Assembly (NCBI GenBank): GCA_020723165.1
Contig: DYJK01000002.1
Location: 31,650 to 77,197, forward strand
Direction of reading: 5' to 3'
Length of the DNA stretch: 45,548 nt
Source: Melioribacter roseus
Lineage (GTDB): Bacteria; Bacteroidota; Ignavibacteria; Ignavibacteriales; Melioribacteraceae
Shown here piece by piece: positions 14,265 through 28,530 of this stretch (position 1 is the stretch's first letter; each line of letters starts with the position of its first letter). Position numbers and translations under genes: made by a program. Below the pieces are notes generated by a model. It saw only the letters and a program-made list of their open reading frames with translations. It searched no databases and was not told the origin of the DNA.

Positions 14265-14678
14265 TTACTTTCTAAAATATTTAGCTAATGCATCTACATA
14301 AATTTTAGGCGGTCTTACTGCTTTTTTATTTTCTTCTTTGATAAAAATGTGAGTGGTAAATCCTTCAGTTATCACTTCATTAGTCTCTTTATTTGTAATC
14401 ACATATTCAATATGAACTTTTGGTGTAAACAATTCTTTAACCGTAGCTTTAATTAATAACACATCATCATAATGAGCCGGGCTAAAATATTTTAAACCGG
14501 CTTCTAGTAAAGGTAATTGATAACCGGCTTTTTCGATTTCGCTGTAAGAAACTCCTGATTGTCTCAGAAGTTCTGTTCTTCCGACTTCAAAATATTCCAA
14601 ATATTTACCGTTATAGACAAATTGCATTTTGTCCGTATCTGCATAGCGGACACGGATTTCTGTAGTATTAGTCAGCAT
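14265..14678 (-). CDS. Acyl-CoA thioesterase, YbgC/FadM-like hotdog fold
   Basis: A 137-residue single hotdog-fold protein, normal for 4HBT thioesterases. The N-terminal motif VRYADTDKMQFVYNGKYLEYFEVGRTELLR contains the Asp and the helix typical of the YbgC/FadM group (written here as a motif spanning residues about 10-38). It probably hydrolyses acyl-CoA or acyl-ACP thioesters in the cytoplasm. The gene lies between accA and a flippase gene, so it may belong with fatty-acid supply and not with polysaccharide synthesis. Next to its start the sequence repeats CTGACTAAT twice. Substrate not determinable. Confidence 0.88.
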   Translation of the reverse strand: MLTNTTEIRVRYADTDKMQFVYNGKYLEYFEVGRTELLRQSGVSYSEIEKAGYQLPLLEAGLKYFSPAHYDDVLLIKATVKELFTPKVHIEYVITNKETNEVITEGFTTHIFIKEENKKAVRPPKIYVDALAKYFRK

Positions 14679-14746: not shown

Positions 14747-15697
14747 TTATTCCTGGTACACTCCCATCTTGCCAAATTTTTCGAGACGGTTTTGAATCAA
14801 CTTATCAGGTTTTATTTTCATAAGTATATCAAGTTCTTCTTTTAAAACAGATTTCAAAGTGTTAGCCATAGTTTGATGATCTTTATGCGCACCACCGAGT
14901 GGTTCCGGAATTATCCGGTCTATAATTCCTTGTTCAAGCAAATCCTCCGCAGTAAGTCTTAAAGATTCTGCAGCTTGTTCTTTATAATCCCAGCTTCTCC
15001 ACAAAATACTCGAACACGATTCAGGACTGATTACCGAATACCAGGTATTCTGCAGCATCAATACTCTATCACCAATACCAAGACCAAGAGCGCCGCCGCT
15101 TGCACCTTCGCCAATTATTGTAATAATTATTGGTACACGAAGATGACTCATCTCCAAAAGGTTACGAGCAATCGCTTCAGCTTGTCCGCGCTGTTCTGCT
15201 TCAATACCGGGATAAGCACCGGGCGTATCGAGCATAGTAACAACCGGCTTACCAAATTTTTCGGCAAGTTTCATTAATCGTAATGCTTTACGGTAACCTT
15301 CCGGGTTGGGCATACCGAAATTTCTGTAAAGATTCGATTTTGTGTCCCGACCTTTTTGATGCCCAATTATCATCACTTTGTGTTGATCAAGTTTTGCAAA
15401 TCCGCCAACGATTGCATGATCATCCTTATATAATCGATCACCATGGAGTTCTGTAAATCCTTCGGTGATCATGTAAATATAATCTAATGTGTAAGGGCGT
15501 TCCGGGTGACGGGCTAACTGAACACGCTGCCATCTTGTTAAATTATCATAGATACTTTTCTTTAATTCGTTAACTTTTTCTTCGAGGGTCCTTATTTCAT
15601 TTGATATATCGAGATGACCTTCGTATTTGCGCATCTCCTCAATTTTATTTTCCAATTCGATAATCGGTTTTTCAAAATCAAGTACGTTTTTAGCCAT
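14747..15697 (-). CDS. accA: Acetyl-CoA carboxylase carboxyltransferase subunit alpha
   Basis: A 316-residue subunit that, with AccD, transfers the carboxyl group from biotin carboxyl carrier protein to acetyl-CoA, the first step of fatty-acid synthesis. The N-terminal helical part ([18 protein letters not shown], then [19 protein letters not shown]) and the crotonase core ([74 protein letters not shown]) match the family throughout. GGAG lies 5 nt before the ATG and inside the last codons of the upstream fusion gene, whose stop is 2 nt away, so the two are translationally linked. accD is not in the window. Confidence 0.97.
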
Positions 15698-15699
15698 TA

Positions 15700-17691
15700 T
15701 TACTCCGTCTTAAATAACATTTTTGAAAATGATCTTCCAAGGATTTCTAAATCAAGCCATATGTTTTGGTTCTTTGCATAATAAAGATCAAGCTTTTTAT
15801 GTTCTTCTATCTCTTGCGATTCAATATTTTCTACATACCAGAAACCGGTTAATCCCTTTTTACCGATAAACAGCCCGTCAAGATCAGATGAAAGTAAAGG
15901 TCCAACAAAACTTTTTTTACCAATTAATACTTCGGGAACACCAAGCATGAATTTAATGAAATCGCTCTTCTTCGAGGTGAACTTCTGAAATAAATATATG
16001 AAAGGATAAACCAAAAGTAAAATTAACATTAAACTCAGAATTAAATCGAATAACTGTTTTGTAATTTGATATGAAAATGAAGAAATATTATACTGAACTT
16101 TTAGCAGCGGAATATCATCAAGAACTGCGATGGAAGATTTACCAACAAGATAGTCGAGTTCGTTACCGGCAACCATAAATTCAACATTCAATCCGTGGCA
16201 GTCTGAAACTACCGCAAATATCTGGCTGAAAGATAATCCTTCCGAAGTAAAAATTACTTTATTTATTTTTTCTTCTGTTATCAATTTCCTGATATTATCT
16301 ACTGCACCAATAATTTTATAGCTGCTAACATTTTCACCAATTCTTTTTCTTGTTAACCCTACCAAACCGCTTACTTGATAAAAACCGGTAAAATTAGATT
16401 TCAGTTTTGAAGCAAGCTGGGCAGCATTTTCTTCATCACCAACAATAATAGTTTTTGTTTTTTTTGTTTCCGAGCTAAATCCAACTTTGAACAATACCTT
16501 AAAGATAATCCTCCATATCGAAAAAGATATGAATGAAAGCACGTAAGTAATAAGTACAACTGCCCGGCTGAATGCGAACTGCTTAAAGAAATATGTTAAA
16601 GCAGCAAGTACAATCATTCCGGCAAATAAAGAAATGTAACTCCTAAAGATTGAAACAATATTTTTTCTGTATACGCCGCCGAGAGCCGAAATAAAAATTT
16701 GAAGTAATGCCGGGACAAAATAGACCCACGGTACTGCAAATGCCGGGAAACCGAGCCAATGTTCATTGGCATAAATTTTTTCTGCGTAGTAAACAGCACC
16801 ACTGAAAAATATAAAATCAAAAAGTATGCTGATGATCGAGTATTTATAAACGTTGGCAAACGCTATTAATTTTCTGAATAATATTGCGGACTGCAATATT
16901 GCTTCAACCAATAATGAGGTTGAAAAATGTTTTTTAACAAAAAGGTGCATTGCATCATAGAAGATTTTTGTTTCGTCAATGCTGCTTCTTTTTGTACTCT
17001 CGCCTTTGTAATGGATTACTTCAGTAGTATGAACATAATAAACTTTATAACCGGCTTTTTGTGAACGGTAACATAAATCGAGGTCCTCCCCGTACATAAA
17101 AAACTGCTGATCAAATCCGCCTATCTTTTCAAATACTTCCCTTCTCAACATCATAAAAGCGCCGCTTACAGCATCAACTTCATATGTTTGGTTTTCATCA
17201 AGGTATGTTAGGTTATACTTTGCAAATAATTTACTCTTCGGAAAAAGTTTACTCAGACCCATTACTTTTGTAAAAGAAGTCCATGGACCGGGGAAAGCTC
17301 TTCTACATGCGAGCTGAAGTGTTCCATCCGGATTTAAAACTTTGCACCCGGCAATTCCGGCATCCGGGGTAGAGTTAAAAAATTGAATCATCTTGGTAAG
17401 TGTTTCTTCTTTTACAATTGTATCGGGATTGATAAGCAGAAAAAATTTTCCCCCGGCAATAGCAAGTCCTTGATTGTTGGCGGTTCCGAATCCAACATTT
17501 TTTTCATTCACAATCAGTTTAACATCGGGATACTTTTCACGGATCAACTCAACGCTGCCGTCATCGGAAGCATTATCAACTATAATAATCTCGGCAGAAA
17601 TATTATGAAGAGATTTTTTTATGGAAGAAAGTAAGTTGAGAAGAAATTCCTTCACATTATAGTTAACTATAATAATAGATAGTTCTATCAT
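15700..17691 (-). CDS. GT2 glycosyltransferase fused to a degenerate phosphoglycosyl transferase
   Basis: A 663-residue fusion. Residues 1-270 are a family 2 glycosyltransferase of the rhamnosyltransferase kind ([46 protein letters not shown]). Then come about four membrane helices (275-400), a nucleotide-binding CoA_binding_3-like domain (about 410-530, [14 protein letters not shown]) and a stretch resembling the end of a bacterial sugar transferase. That end keeps the first helix ([16 protein letters not shown]), a SFVGP motif, KGLTGFWYV (usually PGITGWAQV) and [18 protein letters not shown]. The KFRTM segment, the DPRVTTIGRLLRK segment and the catalytic Asp-Glu of DE-PQ are absent. The sugar transferase half is therefore probably inactive and may serve as a membrane anchor or partner-binding part. 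No Shine-Dalgarno; the start is 6 nt after the upstream stop. Confidence 0.85.
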
Positions 17692-17697
17692 CGCAGA

Positions 17698-18414
17698 TTA
17701 ATTAAGTTTCCCGATTAGAGATCTTAAACGCAGTTTCCAAACCATTAATACGGCTTCCCTAACAATTTTTTTTGACATCTTTGATGTACCTTGAATACGG
17801 TCGGCAAATGTAATAGGTACTTCTACAATTTTAAAATTTTTCTTCCACGCTAAGAAATTCATTTCAATTTGGAACGAGTATCCGTTCGATTCAATTTTAT
17901 CAAGATTAATCGATTTTAAAACTTCTTTCCTGAAACATTTAAACCCACCGGTAGCATCTTTAACCGGCATACCGGTAACTATCCTCGTATAAACATTAGC
18001 AAAATAACTTAGCAGCAATCTTCTTATCGGCCAGTTGATAACACGGACACCATCAATGTATCTGCTGCCAATTACAAGGTCGTTATGTTTAATATTTTCC
18101 AAAAATGTTTCTACCTCTTTCGGATCGTGCGAAAAATCCGCATCCATTTGAATTACTGCTTCATATTCATTCTCAAGCATAAATTTAAATCCGGCAACGT
18201 ATGCTGTTCCAAGTCCCATCTTTCCATTACGTTTTATTAAATGAACACGGTTATCTTTCTCAGAAAATTTTTTTACAAACTCAGCAGTTCCGTCCGGTGA
18301 ATTATCATCAACAACAAGGACATTCAATTCGGGATACATGTTAAGAATAAGCGGTATCAACTTTTGAATGTTGGTTATCTCGTTATATGTAGGAATTATA
18401 ATTAATGTTTTCAT
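17698..18414 (-). CDS. Polyprenol-phosphate mannose synthase-like GT2 (DPM1 type)
   Basis: A 238-residue GT2 enzyme without C-terminal membrane helices. The motifs IIPTYNEITNIQKLI, VVDDNSPDGTAE, QMDADFSHDP, VIGSRYIDG and DATGGFKCFRKEVL match the dolichol/polyprenol-phosphate mannosyl or glucosyl transferase family. It would transfer a sugar from a nucleotide donor (GDP-mannose or similar) to undecaprenyl phosphate at the inner membrane, providing a lipid-linked single-sugar donor. Its ATG shares one base with the TAA of the upstream sugar transferase (TAATG), a sign of translational coupling. No GtrA-type flippase is next to it. Confidence 0.9.
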   Translation of the reverse strand: MKTLIIIPTYNEITNIQKLIPLILNMYPELNVLVVDDNSPDGTAEFVKKFSEKDNRVHLIKRNGKMGLGTAYVAGFKFMLENEYEAVIQMDADFSHDPKEVETFLENIKHNDLVIGSRYIDGVRVINWPIRRLLLSYFANVYTRIVTGMPVKDATGGFKCFRKEVLKSINLDKIESNGYSFQIEMNFLAWKKNFKIVEVPITFADRIQGTSKMSKKIVREAVLMVWKLRLRSLIGKLN

Positions 18415-19820
18415 TATTCTTCAAAATGTCCTTTGCCAAAGAGTACAACAAATATAGTTCTAAAAATTATTTTAAAGTCCATTCTCAAACTCATATTTTC
18501 TATATAGTAGAGATCATACCGCAATTTCGCTCTCACGTCTTCAATATTTTCATCGTATTTATGTTTTACTTGTGCCCAGCCGGTTATTCCTGGTCTAACT
18601 TTCAACCTTCTTTTATAGAGTGGAATTTCTTGCGAAAGTTTTTCGACAAAGAAAGGCCTTTCCGGACGCGGACCAACAAAACTCATATCACCTTTTAAAA
18701 CATTGTAAACCTGGGGAATTTCATCCACCCTAATTTTTCTAAGTAGTCTTCCAATTGTAGTAACACGCGGATCACCTTTCATAGACCAAACCGGTCCCGA
18801 ATATTTTTCAGCGTCTTTTATCATCGTTCGGAATTTTACAATCTTAAAAACTTTATTGTTCATTCCGCTTCTATCCTGACGGTAAAATATCTTGCCTTTG
18901 CTATCAATCTTAATAGCGATCGAACTTAAAATAGTTATTGGTAATGTTATGATAAGCAACATTAACGAAAGTACAATATCCATAAGCCGTTTAAGTTTTT
19001 TTTCCCATTCAGGCATCAGTTCCGGCATAACATCTATTAACGGAACTCCGTAAATCTGGGATGTTCTAACTTGTCCGCTGATTAAATCGTACAGATCGGG
19101 AACAATTTTAATATCAACACTATTCCCCTCACACTTCGAAATTACTTCCAGCAAAGTATCTTCATGATGACGTTCAAGTGAGATTAATACATTTTTAATG
19201 CTATGTTCTTTGATAATCACTTCAAGATTATCAACAGCTCCTAAAACACTAATTCCTTGATATTCTTTAGTTAAATTTTCTTTGAGTACGGCAATGTATC
19301 CAACAACATCCAAACCAAGTGCACGGTGTTTTATAATTGTATTATGCAGCTCGTTTGCTTTTTGATTAAAACCAACAATAACAGCATTACGTCTTCCTAT
19401 TCCTTTTATCAGCAAATTTCTTTGAACGCTTCTTACAGCTAATCTGCCGATACTTACTAAAAGGAGAAAGATTCCCCAATAGACGAAAATATATAAGGGG
19501 AATGCAGTTTGAACACCGGACTTGTAATCATCATAAACTATTAAGATGAATAAAATAAATATTCCAACAAAAGAAGCTTTGAACAAGGTGGATAGTTCAT
19601 CAAAACGGGATTGTGCAAACCAGGTCCGGTACATACCGACAAATGTAAAAATGATAACCCAGTATAAATAGACAGCAAATAATGGGAAGAGAAAATCGGG
19701 CTGTGAGATTAAATCGAATAGCCCGGTTTCTACACGTAAGAAATAAAAAATAACAAACGCAAAATTGACTGTTAAAAAATCAGTTAACAGTATTAGAAGT
19801 CTTTCAACTTTTTTACTCAA
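18414..19820 (-). CDS. Polyprenyl glycosylphosphotransferase (initiating sugar transferase)
   Basis: A 468-residue polytopic phosphoglycosyl transferase that loads the first sugar phosphate on undecaprenyl phosphate. Four N-terminal membrane helices (about 10-125) precede a CoA_binding_3-like domain (NAVIVGFNQKANELHN, about 145-260). The catalytic domain (about 275-468) has KRLMDIVLSLMLL, KIVKFRTM, GDPRVTTIGRLLRK, VDEIPQVYNVLKGDMSFVGP with the catalytic Asp-Glu, and RPGITGWAQV. The start is TTG: GAGG lies 5 nt upstream and there is no in-frame ATG nearby. It sits between lhgO and the DPM1-like gene. The sugar specificity cannot be read; the sequence lacks the GLRG motif of the WcaJ-like copy at 27133-28530. 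Confidence 0.93.
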   Translation of the reverse strand: MSKKVERLLILLTDFLTVNFAFVIFYFLRVETGLFDLISQPDFLFPLFAVYLYWVIIFTFVGMYRTWFAQSRFDELSTLFKASFVGIFILFILIVYDDYKSGVQTAFPLYIFVYWGIFLLLVSIGRLAVRSVQRNLLIKGIGRRNAVIVGFNQKANELHNTIIKHRALGLDVVGYIAVLKENLTKEYQGISVLGAVDNLEVIIKEHSIKNVLISLERHHEDTLLEVISKCEGNSVDIKIVPDLYDLISGQVRTSQIYGVPLIDVMPELMPEWEKKLKRLMDIVLSLMLLIITLPITILSSIAIKIDSKGKIFYRQDRSGMNNKVFKIVKFRTMIKDAEKYSGPVWSMKGDPRVTTIGRLLRKIRVDEIPQVYNVLKGDMSFVGPRPERPFFVEKLSQEIPLYKRRLKVRPGITGWAQVKHKYDENIEDVRAKLRYDLYYIENMSLRMDFKIIFRTIFVVLFGKGHFEE

Positions 19821-27132: not shown

Positions 27133-28530
27133 TTAGTGAGCTTTTGTATCTCGCTTGATCATTTGCCAAACAGTTAAGAAAATTATTCGAAGGTCTAAAA
27201 AGAAATCCCAATTCTCTATATACCAAATATCATATTCGATTCTTTTGATGGTCCTCTTTTTATTTTCGACCGGATCGGTTACATCGCCTCTTAGTCCGTG
27301 AATCTGTGCCCAGCCGGTCAGGCCGGGTTTAACTAAGTGACGTAATTTGATTGCGTCAAAGTATTCCAGATATTCCTGGTTGAAAGCAACTGCATGCGGA
27401 CGCGGACCAACAATCGACATTTCCCCTTTGAGTATATTCCAGAACTGCGGCAGTTCATCAAAATTATACTTTCTTAAATACTTGCCGATTGTTGTAACCC
27501 GAGGATCGTTTTCAAGTGTCGGATTAAAACTATCTTCTTGATTTTTTTGCTTATAATACATCGAGCGGAATTTATAACAACTGAACTTTTCATTTTTCAG
27601 ACCGATCCTATCTTGAATAAAAAAGACCGGGCCGCGTGAAGTTAATTTGATTAATAAAGCTATCAGCGGAATAAGCCAGCTTAAAATTAAAATCATTACT
27701 ATAATGCTAAAAATTATATCGAATGTTCTTTTAATAAATCGTAATTGAATTTCTGCCAGAGGTTCATTCCGGACAGTAATGATCGGGAAATTTCCGATTG
27801 TACTTAACATAAATTTTTTTGAGAGAAATTGAAAATAATCCGGTATGATGTGTGTCCTAACCGCATTTCTATTACATATATTAACAATGTTATTAAGTCT
27901 GAGCGAATCGTAATTTGACGCCGCAATTATGACATCATCAATTTTATATTGATTAATTACCTCATTAAGATCATTCAACCCGCCTAATAGTTTTTTACCG
28001 GGATTGCCATCATCAACAAATCCGATTAAGTTAAAACCAAGCACCGGGTTAGATTCAACTTGCGCAGAAAACTCAACACCAATATTGTTAGCTCCAACAA
28101 TCAATAAATTTTTAACATACTTCCCTTTTGCCCGTAAAATTTTTTGTAATGATTTGAAAGATATTGTTCGAGCGCTTATAAAAGAGATTAACAGAATAAA
28201 ATAAGATAGAATAAAATTACGGGTGAATAAATTTTCCTTTTTTGCAAAGATGAAAATTATTGCTGCAATTATTTGAAGCAATACATTTTTAAAAATCAGT
28301 TGAGCTTGAAAGCGGAACTCATGCGGATTGAAATTATCGTAAAGATCGGTAATGTTGGTTGTGATATACCATAAGATATTCAGCCCTAGCATCAGAATGA
28401 ACATGTATGGTCTTTCATAAAGAATGTGCGAGGGTTGTGCTATCCATGCAGAAAAAAGAAAGGATAAATTAAGAAGTAAAATATCGAGCCAAAGTTTGAT
28501 CGAATAAAGAGACTTTCGGTTTGTAATCAT
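27133..28530 (-). CDS. Undecaprenyl-phosphate glucose phosphotransferase-like (WcaJ type)
   Basis: A 465-residue polytopic phosphoglycosyl transferase with four or five N-terminal membrane helices, a CoA_binding_3-like domain (NLLIVGANNIGVEFSAQV, about 145-260) and a sugar transferase domain from about 265. The catalytic part keeps KRTFDIIFSIIVMIL, CYKFRSMYY, NDPRVTTIGKYLRK, FDELPQFWNILKGEMSIVGP with the Asp-Glu pair, and KPGLTGWAQIHGLRGD. The last motif (GWAQIxGLRG) is typical of WcaJ/EpsE-like glucose-1-phosphate transferases. It is the second complete initiating enzyme in the window and is paired with the convergent ligase/polymerase-like gene. It lies 20 nt downstream of the GT9 gene. No Shine-Dalgarno. 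Confidence 0.93.
   Translation of the reverse strand: MITNRKSLYSIKLWLDILLLNLSFLFSAWIAQPSHILYERPYMFILMLGLNILWYITTNITDLYDNFNPHEFRFQAQLIFKNVLLQIIAAIIFIFAKKENLFTRNFILSYFILLISFISARTISFKSLQKILRAKGKYVKNLLIVGANNIGVEFSAQVESNPVLGFNLIGFVDDGNPGKKLLGGLNDLNEVINQYKIDDVIIAASNYDSLRLNNIVNICNRNAVRTHIIPDYFQFLSKKFMLSTIGNFPIITVRNEPLAEIQLRFIKRTFDIIFSIIVMILILSWLIPLIALLIKLTSRGPVFFIQDRIGLKNEKFSCYKFRSMYYKQKNQEDSFNPTLENDPRVTTIGKYLRKYNFDELPQFWNILKGEMSIVGPRPHAVAFNQEYLEYFDAIKLRHLVKPGLTGWAQIHGLRGDVTDPVENKKRTIKRIEYDIWYIENWDFFLDLRIIFLTVWQMIKRDTKAH

Follow-up and report, generated by a model that had tools for sequence, protein, structure and literature searches.

Large phosphoglycosyl transferases (Lg-PGTs) such as WbaP and WcaJ are built from a four-helix bundle, a PF13727 DUF, a hairpin region, a re-entrant helix and a C-terminal half, and the purpose of the bundle and DUF is only partly known. 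The DUFs of WbaP dimerise mainly through the hairpin, which a monomer model places poorly (PMC10942596), and a myxobacterial Lg-PGT without the hairpin has been proposed to need a partner protein for dimerisation (PMC12802240). When a second enzyme is fused to a monotopic PGT (monoPGT), the protein belongs to the Bi-PGT class (PMC10942596). A lineage that has given up catalysis while keeping the bundle and DUF offers a natural test of a placement or docking role for these parts. Here we describe a candidate, in which a glycosyltransferase is joined to what appears to be a dead monoPGT; we found no description of such a fusion in the open-licence literature, which is an incomplete body.

The window, the whole stretch of Melioribacter roseus DNA that was analysed (45,548 nucleotides), holds a 663-residue reading frame at 15700-17691 that is open from its ATG; positions are those of the window, and every window feature named below lies on the minus strand. 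Residues 1-255 (16927-17691) form a GT2 domain, which is matched by Glycos_transf_2 at residues 5-191 (3e-26), gives fold matches to WrtF, GalNAc-T2 and RmlT, and reaches fold Z scores above 20 to GT-A enzymes. The motifs D39-N40, N88-P89-D90 and G201-E202-D203 show no variation among 24 members drawn from three phyla; because the donor and catalytic motifs are kept, this domain should transfer sugar, in keeping with the original prediction, which took it to be intact. A linker and four predicted transmembrane helices (283-308, 322-337, 348-368 and 376-401) follow at residues 256-405 (16477-16926), as placed by the AF2 model and the WbaP alignment, and lead into a CoA_binding_3, or DUF, Rossmann-like domain at residues 410-508 (16168-16464), for which the PF13727 match spans residues 342-505 (4e-10) and the model matches WbaP and 3nkl (Z 12.6 for the latter). 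A beta-hairpin segment occupies residues 509-540 (16072-16167), the place of the domain-swapped dimer hairpin in WbaP; position 517 and K518 do not vary in those 24 members, and strands at 521-524 and 527-531 have pLDDT below 50 in the monomer AF2 model, of which this segment is the least confident stretch. Residue conservation marks a predicted re-entrant PGT membrane helix at residues 541-571 (15979-16071), with Pro563 kept and modelled helices at 539-558 and 561-571. Alignments place the site of the missing core, from KFRTM to Asp-Glu, at residues ~575-590 (15922-15969), and a C-terminal PGT remnant fills residues 591-663 (15703-15921). Judged from sequence and model, the Lg-PGT arrangement of a four-helix bundle and PF13727 ahead of a PGT domain is present, and the parts that had been listed as retained (helices, CoA_binding_3, first sugar-transferase helix and C-terminal segment) were all recovered by Pfam and the WbaP alignment.

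The match of the fusion to Bac_transf (PF02397) is limited to profile positions 97-178 of 179; the two other PGTs of the window (18414-19820 and 27133-28530), which had been called intact, match the entire profile. A profile alignment identifies fusion residues 280-660 as homologous to S. enterica WbaP, which is longer by ~62 residues that include the YKFRSM segment. The helix that formerly bore the Asp-Glu dyad persists in the fusion with K-F at the dyad positions, so we attribute the loss of the core to an internal deletion together with substitutions. The claim that everything from KFRTM to Asp-Glu is missing thus stands for the core and its dyad and needs amending for the dyad helix, which is present with its dyad replaced.

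We then aligned 118 full-length members of the family with 42 intact PGTs from the same loci. Asp-Glu and KFR[ST]M occur in 0/118 members and in 42/42 intact PGTs. One acidic residue stands at the dyad site in 14 of the 118, with Asp-Glu in none and no conserved acidic pair there, and the Arg after SFVGP (GPRP) is mostly lost. The re-entrant-helix Pro is retained in 111/118 members, the Asp at the start of that helix in 116/118, and three further residues, the Gly of SFVGP and one Tyr and one Asp from the C-terminal helices, in 118/118. PglC contacts UndP through arginines that include Arg88 and Arg145 (PMC10519829); by position in the alignments, Arg88 falls in the region lost from the fusion and Arg145 has no basic counterpart. 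Because the dyad, the core, the GPRP Arg and the UndP arginines are gone, the C-terminal half should do no PGT chemistry. Compared with monotopic PGTs, then, the fusion is homologous to WbaP and PglC by profile and fold, appears from its sequence to keep the re-entrant helix with its Pro, and lacks the Asp-Glu dyad, which together with the invariant GT2 motifs upholds the notion of a GT2 that carries a pseudo-enzyme domain; on its sequence, the protein is best called a pseudo-Lg-PGT joined to a GT2.

Other accounts of the missing core were rejected. In full-length members, a catalytic dyad was not found at any other place in the domain, and the core is absent from every homologue. A single DEHPQ string occurs in a 570-residue member (L168), but the profile match of that protein goes no further than position 510, leaving no PGT remnant, so the string is not a PGT dyad. 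The spacing leaves no DNA for a core in another reading frame. Finally, the same deletion is seen in every homologue, in independent genomes and phyla, which excludes an assembly deletion and takes the deletion beyond Ignavibacteria, the class in which the original prediction had suggested looking for it.

Because a fold search with the whole model returned GT2 matches throughout, we modelled the C-terminal half separately. Foldseek ranks WbaP first among the matches to this model (8t53, E 1e-11). A rigid-body superposition on that structure is poor, so the domains of the fusion and WbaP are placed differently. Within the C-terminal model, residues 263-387 can be superposed on PglC (8e37) over 120 residues at 3.1 Å (Z 10.7).

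Two genes upstream of the fusion, where the true initiating enzyme had been placed, lies an intact Lg-PGT (18414-19820; domain searches, loci and alignment), probably the initiating enzyme of the operon. Between the two is a Dpm1-like GT2 of the polyprenol-phosphate sugar synthase type (17698-18414; domain searches and loci). An accA homologue, named from its sequence, begins 2 bases downstream (14747-15697) and is the most conserved neighbour, followed by a conserved 4HBT-type thioesterase-like gene, named by inspection (14265-14678). The order PGT, Dpm1-like GT, fusion, accA, 4HBT thioesterase is conserved across Ignavibacteria and is extended downstream in close relatives by a MATE-type gene and dnaE. 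Among the loci read, the neighbours include a PGT in 40, a Dpm1-like gene in 44 and accA in 55, and Dpm1-like and accA genes also flank the fusion in Marinimicrobium L061 and KSB1 L068. The second intact Lg-PGT of the window (27133-28530) is of the WcaJ type by domain searches and falls on a more distant branch of true PGTs in our tree.

The family spreads far beyond Ignavibacteria, and the dead-PGT fusion is common to several bacterial phyla. Within the family and order sample it was found in 57 of 58 genomes, G043 being the exception; 55 genomes have it at full length, and the copies of G020 and G027 are partial. A class-wide search with a profile built from 24 members (E ≤ 1e-60) matched 234 of 245 genomes, mostly with one long match each, and 140 of 296 genomes in a phylum-wide sample match at E ≤ 1e-100. 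Fusion family members are also found in 54/61 Marinimicrobia genomes, in 38/39 genomes of KSB1 relatives and in 25/39 genomes of one further phylum, where the PGT remnant is absent. In that phylum (L167-L172), the fusion stops after the DUF at ~550 residues, with the GT2, helices and DUF kept. Some Bacteroidia retain ~390-430 residues, essentially the GT2, and have lost the whole C-terminal half; in one of these (L125), accA and the thioesterase-like gene are still found downstream. Eighty Acidobacteriota gave matches to the GT2 only and none to the C-terminal half, and viral contigs searched with the PGT gave no matches.

Our tree separates the dead PGT parts, as a single clade, from every true PGT (SH-aLRT 100, branch length 1.0); the branching order within that clade is unsure because some branches are long and the tree search was quick. 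A recent duplication of the adjoining PGT is unsupported, the dead clade being deep and separate. Because the dead PGTs sit on one side of this branch, and given their distribution across groups and the missing C-terminal half in the 80 Acidobacteriota, these sequence comparisons indicate that the core was lost once, early, in the common ancestor of the Bacteroidota, Marinimicrobia and KSB1-like members. Comparisons of close pairs gave dN/dS values mostly of 0.06-0.14 (highest 0.23) for the PGT part and somewhat lower ones, 0.02-0.06, for the GT2; the former are if anything overestimated, because dS is depressed at codons 553-568 in Ignavibacteriales. Mean pairwise identity is 0.57 in the hairpin segment, 0.48 in the PGT part and 0.45 in the DUF. 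The substitution rates indicate that the PGT shell is kept under purifying selection.

Synonymous sites in codons 553-568 (window 15991-16016; consensus TTTTGGTTTATCCTTTCATATATTTA) are strongly conserved in Ignavibacteriales: same-codon identity is up to 1.77 times that expected, where the gene averages 1.12 (sd 0.13). This patch of the re-entrant-helix codons overlaps a promoter-like TTTACT-17-TATATT (15993-16021), ~300 bases upstream of accA, that is possibly an internal promoter for that gene. In a genome-wide motif search, near-exact matches were confined to the fusion gene, and weaker matches were about as frequent as those to the control pattern.

The reading we favour, at roughly even odds, is that the dead PGT, without catalysing anything, both anchors a second-step glycosyltransferase at the membrane and docks it beside the initiating PGT. 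The GT2 would act on a polyprenol-linked acceptor while the catalytically dead Lg-PGT holds it at the membrane, retaining the membrane placement and oligomer surfaces of an Lg-PGT (four-helix bundle, DUF hairpin). Whether in a mixed dimer with the true Lg-PGT encoded two genes upstream or as a homodimer lying next to one of that enzyme, it might position the GT2 where the Und-PP-sugar product exits the true PGT, and the GT2 would add the next sugar at that spot. We infer a docking and anchoring role because what remains of the PGT is its placement and pairing parts, namely the helix bundle, DUF, hairpin and re-entrant helix, and the WbaP and myxobacterial hairpin data, together with the low-confidence hairpin here, suggest docking next to the operon PGT. 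If true, this would be a concrete example of a pseudo-enzyme holding together two consecutive steps in the making of a lipid-linked glycan.

Evidence bearing on a partnership with the true PGT comes from the conserved gene order, genome content and coevolution. Six genomes have a single PGT, which adjoins the fusion in four of them (G061, G073, G082 and G092) and is on another contig in the remaining two. Five genomes keep an Lg-PGT with the fusion absent (G062, G065, G126, G174 and G220), which rules out strict co-loss. G043, from the same order as M. roseus, lacks the fusion and has no large PGT among the matches listed; the lone PGT among those matches has a 248-residue frame. In mirror-tree comparisons, GT2 distances track the PGT (partial r 0.60) more than the Dpm1-like gene (0.17), and dead-PGT distances give partial r of 0.45-0.61 with the PGT versus 0.48-0.50 with the Dpm1-like gene, so that the analysis agrees with linkage of the three genes without singling out the PGT. 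No intact PGT was detected in six Marinimicrobia genome bins that carry the fusion. These bins and the remnant-free lineages weaken an obligate PGT partnership.

The same observations favour a simpler scheme, in which the dead PGT fixes the GT2 to the membrane and aids its encounter with a lipid-linked acceptor, the true PGT being uninvolved. Retention of the re-entrant-helix Pro and the dispensability of the remnants in some lineages would fit such an anchor. The UndP arginines of PglC are not kept, however, and a DUF and hairpin would be superfluous for simple anchoring yet are constrained, and we consider this scheme rather unlikely. Less probable again is a regulatory module, with the DUF as a sensor of uridine nucleotides that adjusts the activity of the GT2 or of the PGT next door. 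The WbaP DUF binds uridine nucleotides and UMP inhibits WbaP (PMC10942596), and the DUF persists in the phylum whose members have no PGT remnant, but regulation would not account for why the re-entrant helix and C-terminal half have been kept. We think it very unlikely that the PGT part is a functionless leftover in slow decay. It is degraded in Bacteroidia and lost in places, and the promoter-like element could preserve part of it in Ignavibacteriales as DNA; against this stand dN/dS well below 1 across the PGT part, residues invariant over three phyla and near-universal retention in several groups. That the remnant is still catalytic through a rebuilt active site, to which the invariant Tyr and Asp of the C-terminal helices might lend themselves, is scarcely credible given the loss of the dyad, the KFR[ST]M region and the GPRP Arg and the lack of a conserved acidic pair.

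In a broader speculation, to which we assign a low probability, the fusion, the Dpm1-like enzyme and the adjoining Lg-PGT would form a membrane complex in which the dead PGT and the live one pair as a mixed dimer. Its product would be an ancient glycan that Bacteroidota share with phyla close to them, possibly the common core of the protein O-glycans of Bacteroidota. The machinery for core O-glycan synthesis in Bacteroidota is stated to be unidentified (PMC12871550), and we draw the connection from the breadth of the fusion and its Dpm1-like neighbour. The fusion in any case marks an uncharacterised, nearly universal glycan gene in Ignavibacteria, Marinimicrobia and KSB1 relatives.

Related fusions are found elsewhere in these genomes. 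Two proteins, L209:2575-4944 (790 residues, followed by a Dpm1-like gene) and L210:2828-5299 (824 residues), join a GT2 to an intact Lg-PGT and are placed among true PGTs in the tree, independent of the dead-PGT family, indicating that GT2 and Lg-PGT were joined more than once. In Marinimicrobia, L205:1032-3602, L207:2754-5303 and L206:2833-5286 carry a monotopic PGT behind a polytopic PGT (PF00953, WecA/MraY type), combining both PGT superfamilies in chains of ~820-860 residues; L207 is assigned by sequence only, and the polytopic half of L206 is below the cut-off and appears degenerate.

Among described systems, the GT2 of the fusion matches rhamnosyltransferase, EpsD and mycofactocin-type NCBIfam models below their cut-offs; it shares with these the NPD and GED motifs and differs in carrying a C-terminal PGT shell. 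Like a Bi-PGT, and like L209 and L210 with their intact PGT, the fusion joins a second enzyme to a monoPGT, and it would work as half of a bifunctional PGT, but because the catalytic core was tested for and is absent, so that the PGT half is dead as far as can be read from its residues, we do not file it in that class. It is closest to the Lg-PGTs WbaP and WcaJ, with which it shares the bundle, DUF, hairpin region, re-entrant helix and C-terminal half, and from which it differs in its deleted catalytic core, its missing Asp-Glu and the GT2 that stands in front.
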